This document shows positions 1 through 8,870 of a DNA stretch of 45,125 nucleotides, in pieces. Position 1 is the first letter of the stretch; every line of letters begins with the position of its first letter. Both the position numbers and the translations under genes were made by a program. This stretch comes from Ureibacillus manganicus DSM 26584 (GTDB taxonomy: Bacteria > Bacillota > Bacilli > Bacillales_A > Planococcaceae). Where the stretch lies: contig NZ_JPVN01000026.1 of the NCBI RefSeq assembly GCF_000772945.1, positions 1 to 45,125 of the forward strand, given 5' to 3'. Under the pieces are notes generated by a model. The model was not told the DNA's origin and ran no database searches. It was given only the letters and a program-made list of their open reading frames with translations.

Positions 1-124
1 CGCCAAAAGCCGGATCACATGCATCCAAAAAGCAAATAATCGCCAGAACGACTGAATTAATCGCCAAAATACCCGAGTTAATAGCCAAAATCTATGGAAT
101 AATCGCCAACAAACCAAACTCCTT
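1..124. repeat. Intergenic 21-nt periodic repeat array 1 (CGCCAAAA core)
   Basis: Copies of a core close to CGCCAAAAT start at 1, about 22, 41, 62, 83 and 104; the clear ones are spaced exactly 21 nt. Each core is followed by about 10 variable bases and ends in TTAAT or AATAAT. The array runs into the window edge. No reading frame of useful length covers it, and no gene is visible before 260. Confidence 0.8.
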
Positions 125-259
125 GAACGCAAGCCTAGCTAAGAAAGCACCACCAAATCCAATCAACAAAAAAACAAATTTCTCTCCCGAATCACGTATC
201 GATCTGTACATATTAAATCCAAATTTGTTCATACTAATTGTGCAAAGGAGGAGAGAAAA

Positions 260-517
260 ATGGGCTTATTAGAAAACTGGGACCGTTGGACATCGTTTTT
301 AGGTAACCAAGTTGATAATGCAGAAAATACAGGTATGTCTAAAAAAGTAATTGAAGAAACAGCAGTTCAAATTGGAGACTACCTAGCAAAAAACGTTGAT
401 CCTAAAAACGAACAAGAACGCGTACTTGCCGATCTATGGGGTGTTGCTTCTCACGATGAAAAACATGCCATGGCAAACTGTATCATTAAACTTGTAAATA
501 GCAAACGCGTACAATAA
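260..517 (+). CDS. ymfJ: DUF3243 family protein (YmfJ-like)
   Basis: An 85-residue acidic, soluble protein with no signal peptide or membrane segment. Its length and sequence (start MGLLENWDRW, a central LADLWGVAS segment) fit the DUF3243 family, whose Bacillus subtilis member YmfJ is the same size and also precedes ymfK and rodZ. The function of the family is not established. The ATG follows a strong GGAGGAGAG ribosome site. Gene order (ymfJ, ymfK, rodZ, pgsA, cinA, recA) matches Bacillus, which supports the call. A terminator at 664 separates it from ymfK. Confidence 0.85.
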   Translation: MGLLENWDRWTSFLGNQVDNAENTGMSKKVIEETAVQIGDYLAKNVDPKNEQERVLADLWGVASHDEKHAMANCIIKLVNSKRVQ

Positions 518-577
518 TTTCAACATGACTTCAATTCGTATTTACAACTAGGTGTGGGTTGAAGTTGATCGTTGAAA
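518..577 (+). other. Two-part inverted repeat after ymfJ
   Basis: TTTCAAC (518-524) pairs with GTTGAAA (571-577), and inside it ACTTCAA (528-534) pairs with TTGAAGT (559-565). There is no following T-run, so it is not a simple terminator. A second small hairpin, CTCACTA 625-631 with TAGTGAG 635-641, follows. Role unknown; it may stabilise the 3' end of the ymfJ transcript. Confidence 0.45.
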
Positions 578-663
578 CACCTTAAATTAGCGGCAATTGC
601 CACAAAAGTTTTATTCAAACCTTACTCACTATTTTAGTGAGGCCTCATATGTTTTAATCAATC

Positions 664-693
664 GAAAGGAGGCTCGTCCTCCTTTTCTTTTTC
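664..693 (+). terminator. Rho-independent terminator after ymfJ
   Basis: AAAGGAGG (665-672) pairs with CCTCCTTT (678-685) around the loop CTCGT, followed by TTCTTTTTC. Confidence 0.8.
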
Positions 694-774
694 AAATCTC
701 TAATTTATAACTATATCATTCTTTTTTTGAAAATTAGAATTTCTTAATTTGGAAGAATTATCTGGTTTTGTAAC

Positions 775-803
775 TTTTCAATACATAGAAAATCCGCTAT
801 GAT
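775..803 (+). promoter_or_regulatory. Possible SigA promoter for ymfK-rodZ
   Basis: TTTTCA (775-780), a 17-nt spacer and TATGAT (798-803), about 50 nt before the ymfK start. The -10 is good and the -35 weak. It lies after the ymfJ terminator, where a new promoter is needed. Confidence 0.35.
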
Positions 804-853
804 GAAACTATTAATATAATTATTCGTTTCAATAGTAAGGGGACGATTTCTTT

Positions 854-1642
854 ATGAGTGAATGGTATTTTGAATATGAGATTCAAGTGAATCGTCCAGG
901 ATTGTTAGGTGATATTGCATCACTGCTGGGAATGCTCAGAGTCAATATTGTGTCCATCAATGGTGTCGATGAAGGTCGTCGTGGAATGCTTTTAAATGCT
1001 GAAAATGATGATTCCATAGAACGATTTATTTCGATTGTATCCACGATGGAAAACATTGTTGTGACGAAATTCCGCCAACCTAAAATCCGTGATCGGCTAG
1101 CTGTAAGGCATGGGCACTACATTCCAAGAGATGTGGATGAAAAAAATACGTTCAGATTCTTGCGTACAGAACTTGGGATTTTAGTTGACTTTATGGCAGA
1201 GTTATTTAAAATGGAAGGTCACAAACTGATTGGAATCCGTGGAATGCCTAGGGTTGGTAAGACAGAGTCGGTCGTCGCAGCAAGTGTTTGTGCTAACAAA
1301 AAATGGATTTTCTTATCATCCACGATGATTAAGCAAACACTAAGAAATCGGTTGATTGGCGACGAATTTAGTGACAATAATATTTTTATTCTTGATGGGG
1401 CAGTCACAAGACGAACAAATGACGAAGGCCACTTACGACTTGTTCGTGAAATTATGAATTTGCCAGTCATCAAAGTAATCGAACATCCAGATGTATTTGT
1501 ACAATCATCAGAATATAAAATTGAGGATTTTGATTATATCATTGAGTTACGACATGACCCGAACGAAGTAATTTCTTATGACATCCTTGAAAAAAATCAA
1601 ATGATGTCGCAAAACGACCTTTTTGGAGGATTTAATTTTTAG
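854..1642 (+). CDS. ymfK: DUF3388 domain protein (YmfK-like)
   Basis: A 262-residue soluble protein. Residues 1-75 look like an ACT-type regulatory fold (repeated beta-alpha pattern, RPGLLGDIASLLG near the start). Residues 130-137 read GMPRVGKT, a match to the Walker A consensus GxxxxGK[ST], so nucleotide binding is plausible but not shown. Bacillus YmfK has the same size and the same place before rodZ; its function is not known to me. The ATG at 854 follows AAGGGGACG. The stop is 18 nt before the preferred rodZ start, so the two are probably co-transcribed. Confidence 0.8.
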   Translation: MSEWYFEYEIQVNRPGLLGDIASLLGMLRVNIVSINGVDEGRRGMLLNAENDDSIERFISIVSTMENIVVTKFRQPKIRDRLAVRHGHYIPRDVDEKNTFRFLRTELGILVDFMAELFKMEGHKLIGIRGMPRVGKTESVVAASVCANKKWIFLSSTMIKQTLRNRLIGDEFSDNNIFILDGAVTRRTNDEGHLRLVREIMNLPVIKVIEHPDVFVQSSEYKIEDFDYIIELRHDPNEVISYDILEKNQMMSQNDLFGGFNF

Positions 1643-1660
1643 AAAAAGTAGGTGTTAACA

Positions 1661-2566
1661 GTGACTGAACTCGGTACTCGACTGAAAGAAGCGAGGTTAT
1701 CTAAAGGGTACAGCTTAGATGATTTACAGGAGATAACAAAAATTCAGAAAAGATATTTGGTTGGAATTGAAGAAGGCAACTATTCAATAATGCCAGGTAC
1801 TTTTTACGTTCGTGCATTTATTAAACAGTATGCAGAAGCAGTAGGTTTAAAATCAGAAGAATTATTAGAACAATATAGGAATGAAGTTCCGACCACGCAA
1901 CCGAATGAAGTGACGCAATCCGTTCCCTATACTCCATCCCGTAGGACTTCAAGATCCACAGGACGAATGATGGAAACAGCACCAAAAATTATAGTGGCAT
2001 TATTTATTATCGTAATTGTTGCGGTGATCTGGTTCCTTTATTCTCAAAAGGTTCAAAACACACCAGAAGGCGGGCCAGACGAAGAAACACAATTTGAGTA
2101 CGATCAAAAACCGACTCCGCAAGAAAATTCGAATGGCGGAACAACTGGAACTGGGACAGATGAAGAAGCAACTGAAGATGAAGAACCTGTTGAGCCAGTT
2201 GAAGAAGAACCGGTTGTGACACAAACGATTTCTCCAGGTGCAGTTCAGGCTGATGGAGTTACAACAATTTACGATCTTACTGGTAGCGAGACAATGAACT
2301 TACGCATTGTAATTTCAGGTGATACGTGGGTAGGTATTCGTGATCGTGGTGGCAGTGAGCAAATACCGGATCGTGTTTACAAATCAGGTGAAGAAGTCCT
2401 ATTTGATGCAACGGCAAACACTTATGCCCGCATTCGCCTAGGTGATGCAAGAAATGCGAAAGTCTTTGTAAATGACGAAGAACTTGTCTATACTCAAAAC
2501 CCTCAAGACCGAGGAAAAAGCACTCAAAATATTATTATCCAGTTCGGTGAAGAACAGGCTGAGTAG
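1661..2566 (+). CDS. rodZ: Cytoskeleton protein RodZ (YmfM)
   Basis: A 301-residue bitopic membrane protein that links MreB filaments to the rod-elongation machinery. It has an N-terminal cytoplasmic Cro/Xre-type helix-turn-helix (about residues 1-65, LGTRLKEARLSKGYSLDDLQ), one membrane segment near 109-128, an acidic Pro/Thr/Glu linker and a C-terminal beta-rich DUF4115 domain (about 190-295). I take the start as the GTG at 1661: AGGTG at 1650-1654 gives a ribosome site at proper spacing and the product begins MTELGTRL as in relatives. The GTG at 1652 overlaps that site and has none of its own. RodZ-PgsA order is conserved in Bacillales. Confidence 0.88.
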   Translation: MTELGTRLKEARLSKGYSLDDLQEITKIQKRYLVGIEEGNYSIMPGTFYVRAFIKQYAEAVGLKSEELLEQYRNEVPTTQPNEVTQSVPYTPSRRTSRSTGRMMETAPKIIVALFIIVIVAVIWFLYSQKVQNTPEGGPDEETQFEYDQKPTPQENSNGGTTGTGTDEEATEDEEPVEPVEEEPVVTQTISPGAVQADGVTTIYDLTGSETMNLRIVISGDTWVGIRDRGGSEQIPDRVYKSGEEVLFDATANTYARIRLGDARNAKVFVNDEELVYTQNPQDRGKSTQNIIIQFGEEQAE

Positions 2567-2659
2567 ATATGGCGTAGAAAATAGTTCTGAACTGTCGATA
2601 AAAAGCTAAAAAATTTGATTTAATATCATACAGAATAATAAAATGAATTGAGATGAGCG

Positions 2660-2750
2660 GCGGCTGTCACAAGCTGTCACCATAACAATTCGAGGATAAA
2701 GAAGAAAGGCTGTGCAGAAAATTCTTTCTGGACAGCCGCTTTTCTTTCAA
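2660..2750 (+). promoter_or_regulatory. Possible attenuator in the rodZ-pgsA gap
   Basis: A strong terminator-like hairpin is formed by 2708-2720 with 2725-2737 (13-nt arms, one mismatch), followed by GCTTTTCTTT. Upstream GCGGCTGTC (2660-2668) is exactly complementary to GACAGCCGC (2731-2739), the descending arm of that hairpin, so the two structures exclude each other. A direct repeat of GCTGTCAC lies at 2663-2670 and 2673-2680. The layout is that of an attenuator before pgsA, but it may be a plain rodZ terminator; I recognise no known riboswitch. Confidence 0.45.
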
Positions 2751-2770
2751 AATGAAAGGTGTTTTTATGA

Positions 2771-3352
2771 ATGAATTTACCAAATAAAATAACGGTCTCA
2801 CGGATTATTTTAATCCCGATCTTTGTTATCGTTATGATTAACGACTTTGGATGGGGCAATATGACGCTATTTGGTGCAGAGATGCCGCTGGAGCATTTTG
2901 TTGGAGCATTAATTTTCATCATTGCTTCATGTACAGACTGGATCGACGGCCACTTCGCAAGAAAATACAACCTTGTGACAAACTTAGGGAAATTCCTAGA
3001 TCCTTTAGCGGATAAACTTCTAGTGTCTGCGGCTTTCATCGTTTTAGTTGAGCTTGGATACGCACCAAGTTGGATCATTATTGTGATTATCAGCCGTGAG
3101 TTTGCGGTTACTGGTTTACGTGCAATTCTCGCAGCTGAAGGTGGCGAAGTTGTCGCTGCAAGTAATTTGGGGAAAATCAAAACATGGGCGCAAATCGTCG
3201 CGATTTCATTATTGCTTTTACATAACGCAATCTTCGTGATGTTCGGCATCCCATTTGATATGATTATGCTTTATATTGCCTTAATCTTTACGGTTTGGTC
3301 TGGTTGGGATTACTTCTGGGCGAACCGCAAAATATTTGTGAATTCGAAATAA
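2771..3352 (+). CDS. pgsA: CDP-diacylglycerol-glycerol-3-phosphate 3-phosphatidyltransferase
   Basis: A 193-residue integral membrane enzyme that makes phosphatidylglycerol phosphate from CDP-diacylglycerol and glycerol 3-phosphate, the committed step to phosphatidylglycerol. The CDP-alcohol phosphotransferase signature DGx2ARx8Gx3Dx3D is complete (DGHFAR, then G, D and D of GKFLDPLAD, about residues 58-80). It starts MNLPNKITVSRI, typical of the family, at the ATG at 2771; the ATG four bases upstream is out of frame. AAAGGTG lies at good distance. Expression may be controlled by the hairpins at 2660-2750. A terminator follows directly. Confidence 0.95.
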   Translation: MNLPNKITVSRIILIPIFVIVMINDFGWGNMTLFGAEMPLEHFVGALIFIIASCTDWIDGHFARKYNLVTNLGKFLDPLADKLLVSAAFIVLVELGYAPSWIIIVIISREFAVTGLRAILAAEGGEVVAASNLGKIKTWAQIVAISLLLLHNAIFVMFGIPFDMIMLYIALIFTVWSGWDYFWANRKIFVNSK

Positions 3353-3359
3353 TGTTGCG

Positions 3360-3388
3360 CGGGATTTCAGTGGAAATCCCGTTTTTTT
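3360..3388 (+). terminator. Rho-independent terminator after pgsA
   Basis: CGGGATTTC (3360-3368) pairs with GAAATCCCG (3373-3381) around AGTG, followed by seven T. The arm sequence resembles the repeat core of the array just downstream. Confidence 0.9.
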
Positions 3389-3396
3389 AATAGATG

Positions 3397-3582
3397 TCGG
3401 ATTTCTCAAAGAAAAAGTCGGATTTCTCAGCTGAACTGTCGGAAATCTCGCCTGAAATGTCGGGATTATCAGTAAACTTCGGGATTCTGGATCAAAAAGT
3501 CGGGAATCCGCCAAAAACTTCGGGATTATCAATCAAAAAGTCGGGAATCCCACCAAAAACTTCGGGATTCCGACCCCAATTC
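3397..3582. repeat. Intergenic 21-nt periodic repeat array 2 (TCGGGATT core)
   Basis: Nine cores of the type TCGG(G)ATT(T/A)TC start at 3397, 3418, 3439, 3460, 3479, 3500, 3520, 3541 and 3562, spaced 21, 21, 21, 19, 21, 20, 21 and 21 nt. The other half of each unit varies, often ending in AAAAAG or AAAACT. A 66-codon open frame (3394-3594) is a by-product of the periodicity and has no ribosome site. Confidence 0.85.
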
Positions 3583-3652
3583 AAAACTGTATAACACCTA
3601 ACAATCAGTTATAATAAAAATAAATAATTCCAATAGAATCGAGGGACCAGAG

Positions 3653-4906
3653 ATGAATGCAGAAATTATAGCGGTGGGATCTGAGTTATTGTTAGGGCAA
3701 ATTGCCAATACGAACGCGAAATTTATTTCGAGTCAGCTTTCTGAATTAGGCATCAATGTTTATTTTCACACAGTGGTGGGGGATAATGGCGGCCGTCTAA
3801 AAGAGGCAATCAAAATCGCAGAAGAACGAGCGGACCTCATCATTTTCTCTGGTGGACTCGGCCCGACAAAAGATGATTTAACGAAAGAAACGATTGCAGC
3901 TCACCTAGAAGTGCCGTTAGTTTTCGACCAAATTGCCCTCACATATATAGAAGAATTCTTCTCGAAGCGCGGGCGTACGATGACAGAGAATAATAAAAAA
4001 CAAGCCCTCGTACTAGAAGGGTGTAAAGTCCTTGCCAATCATAACGGGATGGCACCAGGAATGCTGTTAGAGAAAAATGATCGCACCTACATTTTGCTAC
4101 CAGGCCCTCCAAAAGAAATTGAGCCAATGTTCCAGTTTGAAGCAAAGCCACTTCTCGCGAAAAAAGTGAGTGGTGAGATGATTGTTTCACATGTCCTGCG
4201 TTTTTACGGCATTGGCGAGGCGGAGCTTGAAGTGCAAATTCAAGACATTTTAGATAATCAAACCAATCCAACTGTCGCGCCGCTTGCTTCTGACGGTGAA
4301 GTGACGCTAAGAATTACAGCAAAAGCACAAACAGAACATGAGGCATGGAAACTAATCTATGCGAAAAAGGCAGAAATACAAGCTATCGTAGGAAAATATC
4401 AATATGGCGTGGATGATGATTCATTAACTTCAAAAACGGTGGAAATGCTCCTGCACAACAAACTAACAATATCTGCTGCTGAAAGTTTAACGGCGGGTCT
4501 TTTCCAATCGGAATTAGCGGAAGTGCCTAGGGTAAGTGCTGCACTAGTTGGAGGATTTGTAACGTACACTGAACAAGCGAAGGTGAATCAATTAGACATC
4601 TCCCAAGAATTGCTTGACCAACACGGAGTCGTTAGTAGCGAATGCGCGGGTGCAATGGCAGCCAATGCGCGCAAAATCATGGGCACGGATATCGGCATCG
4701 GGCTAACTGGAGCTGCAGGACCGGATCCACATGATGGTCAACCTGCAGGAACAATCTGGATCGGCTTTGCTATAGGTGACGATGAACCCGTTACTCGCAA
4801 ACTCGAACTTTCCGGCATGCGCAACACAAATCGTCTTCGCGCGGTGAAGTATGCGTGTAGTTATTTGATGAGGTTGCTTGCGGAGAAGGGGTATAAGAGG
4901 GTTTAA
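3653..4906 (+). CDS. cinA: CinA: competence/damage-inducible protein, NMN deamidase family
   Basis: A 417-residue two-domain protein. Residues 1-170 are a molybdopterin-binding-like domain (COG1058; FSGGLGPTKDD near 74 and LLPGPPKEIEPM); about 260-415 is the CinA C-terminal domain (AAESLTAGLFQSELAEVPRVS-like start, then GLTGAAGPDPHDG) that carries nicotinamide-nucleotide amidohydrolase activity in family members. Length fits full-length CinA. The ATG at 3653 follows GAGGGACC. In Bacillus it lies directly before recA; here a small gene pair separates them. A terminator follows at 4966. Confidence 0.95.
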   Translation: MNAEIIAVGSELLLGQIANTNAKFISSQLSELGINVYFHTVVGDNGGRLKEAIKIAEERADLIIFSGGLGPTKDDLTKETIAAHLEVPLVFDQIALTYIEEFFSKRGRTMTENNKKQALVLEGCKVLANHNGMAPGMLLEKNDRTYILLPGPPKEIEPMFQFEAKPLLAKKVSGEMIVSHVLRFYGIGEAELEVQIQDILDNQTNPTVAPLASDGEVTLRITAKAQTEHEAWKLIYAKKAEIQAIVGKYQYGVDDDSLTSKTVEMLLHNKLTISAAESLTAGLFQSELAEVPRVSAALVGGFVTYTEQAKVNQLDISQELLDQHGVVSSECAGAMAANARKIMGTDIGIGLTGAAGPDPHDGQPAGTIWIGFAIGDDEPVTRKLELSGMRNTNRLRAVKYACSYLMRLLAEKGYKRV

Positions 4907-4965
4907 TAACATTTGTCTCTTTCCAGGGTTAGGAGCTATATATAATAATTGAAATACTTATTTTC

Positions 4966-5007
4966 AAAACATTACATACTATAAATGTGTAATGTTTTTG
5001 TTTTTTA
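4966..5007 (+). terminator. Rho-independent terminator after cinA
   Basis: AAAACATTACA (4966-4976) pairs with TGTAATGTTTT (4988-4998), followed by TGTTTTTT. Confidence 0.85.
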
Positions 5008-5138
5008 ATCTATTTGCTGTTTAGGATTTTTCATACTTGGAAATGTTGTTTCATATAAACAATTATACAAATCTACCAATATATAGTGAAATGGGGGTGT
5101 TAGGAGTGGAAAGTAGCAATAACAGGGAGGAAAAAGAT

Positions 5139-5315
5139 ATGGCAACAGAAACACTTTTGAAGCATACTGACAAGGAAATTGAAGAAGTTTTTATTAAACG
5201 TGCTTTGGATTCAGATCGTAGACTTTTAGGTGGAAAAGAACTTGCAAATGAGGCTAAAAAAGACCTGGAAGAATATATGAAGTTATTTGGGCTGGAGGAA
5301 TTGGAAGACAAATGA
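5139..5315 (+). CDS. Small charged protein of unknown function, first of a pair
   Basis: 58 residues, rich in Glu, Lys and Leu, predicted mostly helical, no signal or membrane segment. I do not recognise a family. The start at ATG 5139 is chosen because CAGGGAGGAAAAAG gives a strong ribosome site; a longer frame back to 5037 has none. It overlaps the next gene by four bases (ATGA), a sign of translational coupling. The pair sits between the cinA terminator and the recA promoter, where Bacillus has no genes, so it is an accessory insertion. A toxin-antitoxin or regulator pair is possible on layout alone. Confidence 0.6.
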   Translation: MATETLLKHTDKEIEEVFIKRALDSDRRLLGGKELANEAKKDLEEYMKLFGLEELEDK

Positions 5316-5605
5316 CAGTGAAACAATTGGAAAATGCTATTGATAGAATTTCAGCAGTTGAAGGAGTTAGGATGGAACCAATGTACTTAAAATTGGACGT
5401 CTTAGCTCTTTATTATGTCTACAGAGATAGATTTGATATGGTAGTTCAGGAAATCATTAATGTGATGGAAAAAATAGTAGATAATCCTTCGCTAGGTGAA
5501 CAATTAGAATACAGTTTGAAAGAATACAAATCTTATCACTTTTCTAGCCCAGGCCAAACAGTTAAACCTCAAGAGGAAGATATGAGACTTGCTCATAGAT
5601 TTTAA
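5312..5605 (+). CDS. Small protein of unknown function, second of a pair
   Basis: 97 residues, coupled by ATGA overlap to the 58-residue gene before it. Sequence begins MTVKQLENAIDRIS and has a tyrosine-rich central stretch (LALYYVYRDRFD) and a charged tail; mostly helical, soluble. I recognise no family. About 40 codons in another frame directly downstream still read as plausible protein (see 5599-5721), so the original gene may have been longer or followed by another gene now decayed. Confidence 0.55.
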   Translation: MTVKQLENAIDRISAVEGVRMEPMYLKLDVLALYYVYRDRFDMVVQEIINVMEKIVDNPSLGEQLEYSLKEYKSYHFSSPGQTVKPQEEDMRLAHRF

Positions 5606-5721
5606 GGATAAACAGATTAGTAGAAGTTTTAGGTTTTGGTCATCGATATCTTCCAAAAATTTATGATGAAAACGGTAATGAATTACCAAATTGTATCTAT
5701 ACAACATTAAAAAACGCTTAG
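5599..5721 (+). pseudogene. Possible coding remnant after the small gene pair
   Basis: This 41-codon stretch overlaps the end of the preceding gene in a different frame. It lacks a start codon with a ribosome site and reads as normal protein (LVEVLGFGHRYLPKIYDENG, then a short tail ending ..TTLKNA before TAG at 5719). It may be the frameshifted end of the 97-residue protein or of a lost third gene. Not recognised. Confidence 0.3.
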
Positions 5722-5890
5722 GTAAATAGACTTTACATTCTTACCGATGTAAATTTAAGAACTATACATAAATGATGCTTATTGGTATTTCTAGCACTTC
5801 TAGTCGAACAAGTACTACTACTTTCTAAATGGTTCAATTGTTGAATTTCTTCAGGTTTTTGCTACTCAAAAAATTATTTTGCCCATAAAT

Positions 5891-5904
5891 CGAAAATATG
5901 TTCG
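5891..5904 (+). promoter_or_regulatory. LexA (SOS) operator of recA
   Basis: CGAAAATATGTTCG matches the Bacillus SOS-box consensus CGAACN4GTTCG with one mismatch (A for C at position 5). It lies just upstream of the recA -35 element, where LexA binding would block transcription. Confidence 0.85.
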
Positions 5905-5912
5905 GTTTTTTC

Positions 5913-5941
5913 TTGAAAGTTTCTCAAAAAAGAAGTATAGT
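5913..5941 (+). promoter_or_regulatory. SigA promoter of recA
   Basis: TTGAAA (5913-5918), 17-nt spacer, TATAGT (5936-5941). The predicted leader is about 40 nt to the TTG start. Confidence 0.8.
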
Positions 5942-5988
5942 AGAGACATAAGAAAAACAGACTGATTTACTATTAAGGAGGAAATTTT

Positions 5989-7056
5989 TTGAGCGATCGT
6001 AAAGCGGCCTTAGATATGGCGTTAAAACAAATTGAAAAGCAATTCGGTAAAGGTTCTGTCATGAAACTGGGAGAAAAAACAGACCTTCAAATCGAAACAA
6101 TCTCTAGTGGTTCATTAGCACTTGATGCTGCACTTGGTGTTGGCGGATATCCAAAAGGAAGAATTATTGAAGTTTACGGACCAGAATCTTCTGGTAAAAC
6201 AACAGTAGCTCTTCACGCAATTGCTGAAGCACAAAAAGCTGGTGGACAAGCAGCTTTCATCGATGCTGAGCACGCGCTAGATCCGTTATATGCACAAAAA
6301 TTAGGCGTAAATATTGATGAATTAATCCTATCTCAACCAGATACTGGTGAGCAAGCATTAGAAATCGCAGAAGCATTAGTACGTAGTGGTGCGATTGACG
6401 TAATCGTTGTTGACTCTGTTGCTGCATTAGTTCCAAAAGCTGAAATCGAAGGCGAAATGGGAGACTCTCACATGGGTCTACAAGCTCGTTTAATGTCTCA
6501 AGCTTTACGTAAACTTGGCGGTGTTATTAATAAGTCAAACACACTAGCGATCTTTATCAACCAAGTTCGTGAAAAAATTGGTGTAATGTTCGGTAACCCT
6601 GAAACAACTCCTGGTGGACGCGCGTTAAAATTCTATTCTTCTGTTCGTTTAGAAGTTCGTCGTGCTGAAACAATTAAACAAGGTAGTGACATGGTAGGGA
6701 ACAAAACAAAAATTAAAGTTGTAAAAAACAAAGTAGCTCCTCCATTCCGTACAGCAGAAGTTGACATCATGTACGGTGAAGGGATTTCTAAAGTTGGGGA
6801 AATCGTTGATATTGGTGCTGAATTTGATATCATTCAAAAAAGCGGTTCTTGGTATTCTTACGGGGACGAACGTATCGGCCAAGGTCGTGAAAACGCAAAA
6901 CAATTCCTAAAAGAAAACCCAGTAATCCAAAAAGAAGTCGAAGGCAAAATTCGTGAATCTCTTGGTATGGCAGCAGGCTCTTACACAATTGCTGCACATG
7001 ACGAAGAAGATGAAGCAATGCCAGAAGAATTAGCATTATTGTTAGAGGAAGAATAA
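5989..7056 (+). CDS. recA: Recombinase RecA
   Basis: 355 residues, the usual size. RecA forms filaments on single-stranded DNA, catalyses strand exchange and triggers LexA self-cleavage. The Walker A motif GPESSGKT is at residues 64-71, Walker B is the hydrophobic VIVVDS stretch, and the L2 region begins at the INQVREKIG segment. The C-terminus is acidic ([16 protein letters not shown]). The start is TTG at 5989, seven bases after AAGGAGG; the product then begins [12 protein letters not shown] as in other Bacillales. It is under its own LexA-controlled promoter and ends at a strong terminator. Confidence 0.98.
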
Positions 7057-7063
7057 TACTATC

Positions 7064-7096
7064 AAACCCATTCTCGCGTAGAGGATGGGTTTTCTT
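7064..7096 (+). terminator. Rho-independent terminator after recA
   Basis: AACCCATTCTC (7065-7075) pairs with GAGGATGGGTT (7081-7091) with one wobble pair, followed by TTCTTTT. Confidence 0.88.
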
Positions 7097-7251
7097 TTGC
7101 TCAAAAACACAATTTTACAGAAAATTAACATATGTAGAAGTCGTCCTAAACGTACAATGAGAACGATAAGATCAATATACAGATAACTAAAGCCATCAAT
7201 CTTGAAATAAATAGAATAGAAGATTTCAAGAAAACTAAAAGGAGTGGGAAA

Positions 7252-8073
7252 ATGAAATCATTCAAATTAGGTTTGAAGGGTTCATCCGATCCGAAGCAAA
7301 TTGAGAATCGTTTATCTCAAGAGGGTATTGAAATCTATGAATTTCATTTGGTAGAAGATGATTTGTTTGGGGCGCGATTAAAACATCTCGAATCCTCTAT
7401 TGCTAAATTAAAGGAACATGGGGTGCGCGTATATCTGCATCATCCCATGGCGATCCAGGGAAAGTGGCTACACATCAATGATGAAAATTCGATTGCTGCG
7501 GATTTTTTCAAATTGAGTACCCGCATTCTAGTAGATATATGCGAACGATTTGATTGCTATGTAGTTGTGCATTGGAATTATGGGATGTTGCAAAATAATC
7601 AATTGGTTGTTGAACAAGAAGTTCCAGATAAAAAAAGTCTGATTCAAACAATTGCACGAACGATTGCCTATGATGAGCGTTATGGAAAAGGTCGTATTCT
7701 CTGGGAGAACGGAATTAGGGGAGTGGGGGCGTTTCGAAATGATTTTGCTCTCGCAAATTTAATAGTAGATACTCCATTAAAACTTTGTTTTGATGTGAGT
7801 CACGGCTTTATTAGCATGAACGGAGATAATGAATCACTTTTCAAAACGATAGAATTATTGCAGAATCAAATCTGCTACTATCATGTGGTTGATAGTATGG
7901 GGAAAACACATGATTCATTGATGATCGGCCAGGGCGAGATCGATTTTCGCCGCATTCTTCCGTTCATCCTTGAAAAAGATTATATTTACGAGATTATGTT
8001 AGGGGATAACGAGGATTGTTGGGAGATGGTGGAGAGTCATCGTGTGTTTAGGGGATTGCTATGTGACAAGTGA
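7252..8073 (+). CDS. TIM-barrel protein of the xylose isomerase-like / AP endonuclease 2 family
   Basis: 273 residues with the alternating beta-alpha pattern of sugar phosphate isomerase/epimerase-type barrels. Likely metal ligands lie in the expected order: Glu in ILWENG, Asp and His in CFDVSHG, His in YYHVVDS and Glu in IYEIML. His residues in YLHHPM and VHWNYG add to the site. The substrate cannot be told; an endonuclease IV-like activity is less likely because the three-zinc pattern is not complete. The ATG follows AAAAGGAGTGGG. It stands alone between the recA terminator and a long repeat region. Confidence 0.7.
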   Translation: MKSFKLGLKGSSDPKQIENRLSQEGIEIYEFHLVEDDLFGARLKHLESSIAKLKEHGVRVYLHHPMAIQGKWLHINDENSIAADFFKLSTRILVDICERFDCYVVVHWNYGMLQNNQLVVEQEVPDKKSLIQTIARTIAYDERYGKGRILWENGIRGVGAFRNDFALANLIVDTPLKLCFDVSHGFISMNGDNESLFKTIELLQNQICYYHVVDSMGKTHDSLMIGQGEIDFRRILPFILEKDYIYEIMLGDNEDCWEMVESHRVFRGLLCDK

Positions 8074-8097
8074 GTGTTCGTGCAGTTCGATTCGAGC

Positions 8098-8209
8098 ACA
8101 TAGAGATCTCCTATATGCCCGAGTGGGATGGTTTTAATGGAGAAAAGTAACATAGAGGGTTTCTATGTGCCCAAACGGGATGGTTTTAATAGAAAAAAGT
8201 CACATAGAG
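8098..8209. repeat. Two 52-nt direct repeats with ACATAGAG boundaries
   Basis: ACATAGAG recurs at 8098, 8150 and 8202, exactly 52 nt apart. The two units share TATATGCCC/TATGTGCCC, then GGGATGGTTTTAAT and GA(A)AAAAGT. TCTATGTG (8162-8169) and CACATAGA (8201-8208) are inverted, so the second unit can fold into a hairpin. Confidence 0.75.
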
Positions 8210-8233
8210 CTGCAAAAGGATCTATATTACGGT

Positions 8234-8870
8234 ATGTTTTCTAATAACTCCCCGATTTTTTCTAATAACCCCCATGTTTTTTCTAATAACTAGTCAATTT
8301 TTTCTAATATCTACAGCGCAGGGATCAACTAAACGCATGTTTTCTAATAACTCCCTGATTTTTTCTAATAACCCCCATGTTTTTTCTAATAACTAGTCAA
8401 TTTTTTCTAATAACTAGTCAATTTTTTCTAATATCTACAGCGCAGGGAACAACTAAACGCATGTTTTCTAATAACTCCCCGATTTTTTCTAATAACCCCC
8501 ATGTTTTTTCTAATAACTAGTCAATTTTTTCTAATATCTACAGCGCAGGGATCAACTAAACGCATGTTTTCTAATAACTCCCTGATTTTTTCTAATAACC
8601 CCCATGTTTTTTCTAATAACTAGTCAATTTTTTCTAATAACTAGTCAATTTTTTCTAATATCTACAGCGCAGGGAACAACTAAACGCATGTTTTCTAATA
8701 ACTCCCCGATTTTTTCTAATAACCCCGTGTTTTTTCTAATGACTAGTCAATTTTTTCTAATATCTACAGCGCAGGGAACAACTAAACGCATGTTTTCTAA
8801 TAACTCCCTGATTTTTCTAATAACCCTCGTGTTATTTCTAATAACTTATCATTTTTTTCTAATACCCTAA
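8234..8870. repeat. Intergenic 21-nt periodic repeat array 3 with a perfect 227-bp tandem duplication
   Basis: The basic unit is TTTTCTAATAAC plus about nine variable bases, 21 nt in all. Three such units plus a 40-nt unit ending GGGATCAACTAAACGC make a 103-nt block; one extra unit makes 124 nt. Blocks start at 8234, 8337, 8461, 8564, 8688 and 8790, of lengths 103, 124, 103, 124, 102 and a decayed remainder. As far as I can read, 8234-8460 and 8461-8687 are identical, including the small variants (CCCCG/CCCTG, GGATC/GGAAC) that differ between blocks. Confidence 0.88.

Follow-up and report, generated by a model that had tools for sequence, protein, structure and literature searches.

The window considered here is the whole contig C19 (45125 bases) of Ureibacillus manganicus DSM 26584, whose genome comprises 4.05 Mb in 81 contigs. 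It carries three intergenic arrays of short direct repeats with a common step near 21 nucleotides (nt), and the question it raises is what such arrays are: satellites spread by an enzyme, accidents of slippage, parts of a transcript, or DNA built to be handled by a protein. The present data point to elements of two forms, direct cores at 21 nt (class I) and inverted arms at 52 nt (class II), in which the letters vary and the geometry stays. The reading preferred here, held with slightly less than even confidence, is that the arrays are DNA-level, helically phased elements that a candidate protein binds, bends or wraps. The three arrays of the window, all of class I, are the following.

1..124, plus strand: array 1, TTAATCGCCAAAAT type, with 21-nt steps and one 40-nt step, truncated by the contig start.
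3394..3582, minus strand: array 2, TCGGGATT on the plus strand and AATCCCGA on the minus strand, with steps of 19-21 nt.
8234..8870, minus strand: array 3, TTTTCTAATAAC on the plus strand and TTATTAGAAAA on the minus strand, with 21-nt units in super-units of 103/124 nt as delimited by Tandem Repeats Finder (TRF).

Arrays at these sites had been claimed in an earlier note on this DNA, and they are present in the sequence, with best lag scores of 18.6, 30.2 and 214.9 for arrays 1, 2 and 3 against a shuffled 99th percentile of 14.4. The cores of array 1 (cgcc/agcc) stand at 41, 62, 83 and 104, with an extra copy at 1 that makes the 40-nt step, the steps of array 2 span 3397-3582, and array 3 is built of tandem super-units of 103, 124 and 227 nt. 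Because each array has further matches in its own genome (15 for array 3, seven for array 1 and two for array 2), all three belong to dispersed families.

The wider distribution was followed in 60 stretches of about 20 kb each, some of them picked for arrays already known there, which together with the window amount to 1.245 Mb or 31% of the genome; an earlier sample had covered 845 kb with 458 intergenic regions. Genes were called with a simple ad hoc open reading frame (ORF) rule, so gene and gap counts are rough, and false ORFs sometimes absorbed arrays of 21- or 51-nt units. In the earlier sample, 45 of the 458 regions exceeded the threshold of 15.4, as against 2 of 458 after shuffling. 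Among the 698 regions of the larger sample, those carrying three or more identical 8-mers at a given distance were most frequent at 52 nt (23 regions), 21 nt (22) and 104 nt (20), with lesser peaks at 42 nt (15), 63 nt (12) and 103 nt (11), so that the repeats concentrate at 21 nt, 52 nt, their multiples and composites. By contrast, 1098 called ORFs, some of which are arrays read as open frames, gave 16 at 21 nt and 23 at 42 nt, scattered across many multiples of three. Region-level tests were clearer than the autocorrelation of all intergenic DNA pooled, in which the 21-nt peak is modest (z 2.9) and those at 52 and 104 nt reach z 5.4 and 5.3. At the cut-offs applied, the 52-nt kind is represented by 28 arrays and the 21-nt kind by 15, which together make up 5.6% of the intergenic bases sampled. 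The earlier note had staked its claim beforehand on such a check of other gaps, and with 22 of 698 regions at 21 nt the claim survives; its idea of a single period has to be widened, as the 21-nt excess extends far beyond the window and the 52-nt unit is at least as common. Seven of the 21 contig starts sampled fall within or close to an array (position 1 of the window and the starts of C1, C13, C14, C18, C20 and C42), which suggests that the assembly breaks there and leaves true array lengths uncertain. Units of 21 and 51 nt also keep reading frames open and may find their way into annotations as hypothetical proteins; array 3 contains an open frame of 88 codons (window 8604-8870).

Class I units are direct and without palindrome. 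Steps between exact TTCTAATA cores at most 135 nt apart (n=150, with a few overlapping loci) measure 21 nt in 100 cases, 20 nt in 12, 22 nt in one and 40 nt in 26. A super-unit of 103 nt, composed as 3x21+40, recurs across different loci and core families, and in other super-units 29 replaces 40 to give 92 and 113 nt. The cores of the three arrays had been taken as unrelated, a view that has to be qualified: on one strand they align as TTATTAGAAAAAAT / TTAATCGCCAAAAT / AATCCCGA, and the cores TTATTAGACAAAAT and TATTCGCCAAAATG in G006, another genome of the window's genus, bridge arrays 3 and 1. Of 55 listed arrays, 43 were retained by requiring at least three steps of 21 nt (19 from the own genome, 7 from G006 and 17 from other genomes), and near-identical consensuses were merged ahead of the arm, harmonic and motif tests. 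The resulting 18 distinct unit consensuses share 5.88 bits, a value that may partly stem from common A/T phasing, against 4.46 +/- 0.13 when column-shuffled (maximum 4.74 of 40). The seemingly unrelated cores therefore look like remote, diverged variants of one motif.

The second form is a unit with a 27-nt module followed by a linker of about 25 nt. Of 34 class II arrays listed, a clear inverted repeat is present in 29; five were dropped for a hairpin score below 7, a remnant in the window among them, and the array in L057 is doubtful. Modules begin with TGTC in 15 of the 29, mostly ending in GACA, and take GGTAAC or (A)GGTC/AAGTC forms in 12 and others in 2, the GGTAAC and (A)GGTC/AAGTC modules retaining the geometry of the TGTC modules. 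This spacing stands out in intergenic DNA: the distance from TGTC to GACA is 23 nt in 52 instances, against a mean of 2.6 per distance, and that from GACA to TGTC is 29 nt in 47 instances, against a mean of 3.1. The step between units is 52 nt in 166 of 181 cases and 51 nt in 12. Arms of a given array pair at 8.27 of 11 positions across 11 distinct sets, one of which has only 2 pairs, compared with 5.15 after arm swap, and inner arms pair at 4.93 of 7 positions in 28 geometry-selected sets compared with 2.88 when swapped (maximum 3.93 of 3000). Since arms differ across arrays yet stay complementary, growth by slippage alone offers no explanation.

This bears directly on the possibility that the arrays are neutral tandem repeats, enlarged through slippage and unequal recombination, whose lengths of 21 and 52 would be chance legacies from a few founders. 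The tandem super-units of array 3 are what such a process would leave behind, as is the homogeneity within loci, where adjacent modules are 0.90 and adjacent linkers 0.84 identical. However, unit lengths do not scatter, the complementarity of divergent arms is retained, and only 6 of 150 adjacent pairs have linkers of unequal length, whereas two ordinary orthologous gaps accumulated 23 gaps beside 91 substitutions; neutral growth thus appears improbable. The length constraint is a moderate argument, as it rests on 44 dissimilar pairs, 4 of which differ in length.

Both forms share a modulation of A/T content at the helical repeat. With fixed letters masked, 28 distinct class II consensuses show an A/T signal at 52/5 = 10.4 bp (z 8.6; other periods at most 1.6), with maxima near positions 9, 19, 29, 40 and 51, and the share at 10.4 bp is higher than in ordinary intergenic windows (n=2317, p 2.4e-9); a previous set of 26 consensuses had given z 13.7 at 10.4 bp and 4.5 at 5.8 bp. 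Unmasked, AA/TT steps reach z 13.4 at 10.4 bp and TA steps z 3.5. In class I, the second harmonic at 10.5 bp has z 7.7 over 43 arrays and z 4.5 over the 17 from other genomes. Intergenic DNA of Escherichia coli likewise has a period near 11 bp borne by ApA/TpT, according to the accessible part of the source (PMC516772). A build of two helical turns with every core on the same face, as proposed in the earlier note, stands in so far as 21 and 52 nt are close to whole turns and both classes show A/T phasing on average; the 40- and 29-nt gaps and the 37/38-nt arrays depart from it.

The gene context suggests that the arrays function as DNA. Among gaps of at least 200 nt with both flanks called, convergent gaps account for 13 of 31 with arrays and 33 of 308 others (p 3.4e-5), and divergent gaps for 2 of 31 and 73 of 308 (p 0.024); the divergent deficit in the first sample was 1/22 vs 50/215 (p 0.053), and the larger, significant sample contains it. 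Alternatively, the arrays could be RNA elements, co-transcribed with the upstream gene, in which class II hairpins and class I single-stranded repeats serve stability, termination or protein sequestration. Their position close to gene ends, at a median of 75 nt from the stop codon, and the ability of class II units to fold as hairpins would suit such a role. However, class I arrays have no strand preference, with 7 on the same strand as the flanking genes, 8 on the opposite strand and 4 in convergent or divergent gaps, and class II arm mismatches on the gene-sense strand comprise 120 G-T and 123 A-C (256 other, beside 1613 standard pairs). The lack of both strand bias and wobble bias suggests a function of double-stranded DNA rather than RNA. 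In addition, Rfam 15 gave no match on arrays above the gathering score in five sources (125125 bases), and an RNA role is considered distinctly improbable. The same search found a c-di-GMP-I-GGC riboswitch at L108:5921-6001, away from arrays. A link to terminators was also considered and is weak: a terminator-like hairpin separates the gene from the array in 16 of 47 cases, compared with 95 of 359 control draws.

Turnover appears rapid between related species. Ureibacillus acetophenoni JC23 (L020) was used for comparison, as the best named match to the CinA of the window (91% identity), in a search that may omit records very close to the window. The earlier note had suggested aligning orthologous gaps between strains; between these two species, arrays differ at the same sites. 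The gap between rodZ and pgsA is free of arrays in the window and holds a 52-nt array in L020, array 2 in the pgsA-cinA gap has no counterpart there, and the TIM-rny gap holds array 3 with a 52-nt remnant in the window and a 52-nt array in L020. The rest of array 1 very probably lies at the end of contig C25, behind the gene that stands before the DUF3243 gene in L020. Between this short-chain dehydrogenase/reductase (SDR)-like gene and DUF3243, the window's species carries one array of class II and one of class I, in a gap made up of 817 nt from the end of C25 and 259 nt from the window, whose adjacency is suggested by gene order, whereas L020 has about 125 nt and no array. Two further features adjoin the arrays of the window.

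3360..3388, plus strand: terminator-like hairpin belonging to pgsA and immediately preceding array 2, read directly in the sequence.
8098..8209, no strand assigned: two degenerate class II units of CTATGTGCCC / AACATAGA type (2.2 units of 52 nt) just before array 3.

A similar terminator-like hairpin follows pgsA in L020 without an array, and the class II remnant scores 6.4 as a hairpin, under the arm-test cut of 7. Between cinA and recA, two small adjoining open frames occupy window 5037-5605, the first of them without a Pfam match.

Beyond the species, the proportion of gaps above threshold was 2/38 in G002, 2/43 in G005, 1/41 in G013, 3/53 in G009, 0/34 in G021, 1/39 in G025, 5/49 in G026 and 12/51 in G006, the stretches of G006 having been selected for array hits. 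At 80 named orthologous loci, 46 of 561 regions exceeded the threshold, with best lags at 21, 41-43, 51-52, 62, 103-104 or 112-113 nt in 25 and elsewhere (9, 11, 30, 37, 55, 123-124 and others) in the other 21. Arrays with 20- or 21-nt steps occur at such loci in Lysinibacillus, Ureibacillus, Solibacillus, Viridibacillus, Psychrobacillus, Sporosarcina (20 nt) and Peribacillus. A double TGTC-NN-GATT form at 21 nt is present in 11 of 261 family genomes and 3 of 19 genera, and absent from the own genome. A 21-nt-step array with a TTCACCCAAGT core at L173:17344-17568 belongs to another family of the class (G026), and the 21-nt build may extend further. The 52-nt form was sought by geometry alone, as TGTC-N19-GACA-N25 followed by TGTC-N19-GACA (16 fixed bases), and had 190 matches in the own genome, compared with 307 in G006, 383 in G002 and zero in the reversed control; it was found in 12 of the 261 family genomes, comprising 12 of 25 in the window's genus and 0 of 236 others, an order-level search having covered the same 261 genomes with no gain in breadth. 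Repeats of other kinds were met along the way: 38-nt palindromic arrays (L138:17932-18046, L109:644-718 and L144:19534-19610, with 37 nt in L027:9716-9823), an 85-nt array at L138:7304-7659 whose units each hold two different inverted repeats, 123-124-nt repeats of a different kind at four Planococcus loci (L054, L057, L060 and L061), and a 30-nt direct repeat of ATTCTCAATTAAAAT type just behind cinA (L073:9253, L088:9251, L092:9262 and L093:9263), carried by three Sporosarcina loci and one Filibacter locus.

This patchy distribution gives weight to the main rival, namely that the arrays are selfish satellites, non-autonomous repeats multiplied and dispersed by a recombinase or replication process that, rather than a cell function, would set their unit length, with the 27-nt palindrome or a half-site as the active unit. 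The same families recur at many loci with different linkers, presence, absence and replacement occur at the same gaps in related species, and class II matches range from 0 to 383 places within one genus. Arrays of repetitive extragenic palindromes (REPs) and bacterial interspersed mosaic elements (BIMEs) are moreover thought to be spread by REP-associated tyrosine transposases (RAYTs), in the accessible text of PMC2817692. However, no match to the RAYT-type domain (Y1_Tnp, PF01797) was found in the own genome, the control being positive in 5 of 14 genomes; a search of the genome for Mu-type transposases was empty, its control being silent; and helical A/T phasing in both classes is not required of a satellite. 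Selfish spread is therefore judged unlikely, if still worth serious weight, and a satellite with an enzyme-fixed unit is compatible with protein-bound DNA. A more specific variant takes the arrays as end sites of a TnsB/TniA-type transposase. Elements of this type have TGTC ends and tandem sites of about 21 bp, and TGTC/GACA occurs in class II and in one class I form. However, the genome has no match to Mu-transpos_C (PF09299) in that silent-control search, and no transposon with such ends was seen among the stretches read. This origin appears very improbable.

Membership in REP/BIME was rejected, as two defining features fail. One is the RAYT transposase; the other is a single conserved sequence with a GTAG-type head, by which REPs are defined as far as the available text goes (PMC2817692), and in place of which many arm sets with different letters occur here in one genome. 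The likeness to BIME-2 and REP lies in intergenic arrays of palindromic units behind genes (class II only), rapid turnover and possible gyrase wrapping; unlike them, the letters vary here, the geometry is fixed and class I is non-palindromic. Gyrase cuts BIME-2, whose arrays are gyrase sites, and the gyrase motif of E. coli has a 10.75-bp periodic GC content where DNA is wrapped, both from the portion of PMC6379681 that was accessible. The present arrays resemble this motif in their alternation of A/T and G/C at the helical repeat over an extended stretch (10.4-10.5 bp on average, absent in array 3 alone) and differ in their fixed 21- or 52-nt units, the gyrase motif being about 130 bp, degenerate and not tandem. 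Some intergenic tandem repeats of Borgs have 20-21-nt units and are gained and lost between relatives, as here, but consist of perfect unit copies according to the part of the source consulted (PMC9879509), whereas here cores are kept, spacers vary and a second, inverted class exists. Clustered regularly interspaced short palindromic repeats (CRISPR) combine long identical repeats with unique spacers, in contrast to the short cores and recurring spacers seen here in super-units. Mycobacterial interspersed repetitive units (MIRU) and cyanobacterial short tandemly repeated repetitive (STRR) sequences are intergenic tandem arrays defined by sequence, the MIRU unit length being near 52; their likeness to the present arrays is one of general description. 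A PubMed Central search, outside which most subscription journals fall, returned no description of such arrays.

Taken together, these observations allow a model to be proposed. A geometry that stays fixed while the letters are free, arms that change in a compensatory way, and A/T content in phase with the helix fit together if a protein bends or wraps the DNA. Loosely specified binding units would be spaced by about two turns (21 nt, direct) or five turns (52 nt, inverted), so that contacts and AA/TT-rich stretches could recur with the helix, and the protein that we infer to bind, bend or wrap them would most likely be DNA gyrase or a nucleoid protein. Gyrase suggests itself by analogy, given the 10.75-bp periodicity in the wrapped flanks of its E. 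coli motif and the gyrase sites in BIME-2. Lying behind genes, often convergent ones, where positive supercoiling should collect, the arrays may be topological or packaging sites. They would expand and contract through duplication of entire units and super-units, be gained and lost rapidly, and drift in sequence while the geometry stays. Of the earlier suggestion of a common growth mechanism or a common phased-binding role, the part that stands is that length is held while letters change; slippage alone fails on the compensatory arms, and the binding partner is a presumed one.

Several points weigh against this model. Protein binding, wrapping, a topological role and the mode of growth all enter it by inference, the binding protein included. 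The lag-based finder is inclined toward constant spacing, possible shared descent of arrays means that the z values overstate independence, and 106 of 150 pairs of adjacent linkers are at least 80% similar. A three-turn unit of 31 nt was not seen among the sampled repeats, the 37/38-nt arrays and an array of 85 nt do not correspond to whole turns, and the 40- and 29-nt gaps (3.8 and 2.8 turns) violate a strict same-face rule. Taken by itself, array 3 lacks an AA/TT peak at 10-11 bp, and arrays 1 and 2 have weak ones; unmasked class II consensuses also have AA/TT peaks at 5.8 bp (7.7) and 7.4 bp (3.5), raised GC-pair steps at several periods and a purine signal at 13 bp (8.8), and class I AA/TT is also up at 7 bp (4.6). 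Whole-turn quantisation of super-units (92, 103, 113, 124 nt and others) looks good by eye and was set aside, as a Rayleigh test over 8 lengths is not significant (R 0.42-0.43, p ~0.24). In addition, the orientation bias could merely reflect freedom from promoters.

A broader proposal, put forward tentatively, is that the arrays represent an element class defined by geometry rather than sequence, with two- and five-turn units, compensatory arms and helix-phased AA/TT, which would act as wrapping platforms for a protein sensitive to spacing and shape, much like nucleosome-positioning DNA, and which would be abundant in one genus with the 21-nt form also found beyond it. For assemblers and gene callers, the arrays call for caution, as contigs seem to break at them and 21-/51-nt units can keep false reading frames open. 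If the model is true, these genomes hold chromosomal DNA that keeps its spacing and bendability while its letters change, and, with array numbers from none to hundreds across species of one genus, they would provide a natural experiment on the reading of DNA shape, the placement of gyrase or nucleoid proteins, and the evolution of bacterial satellites.

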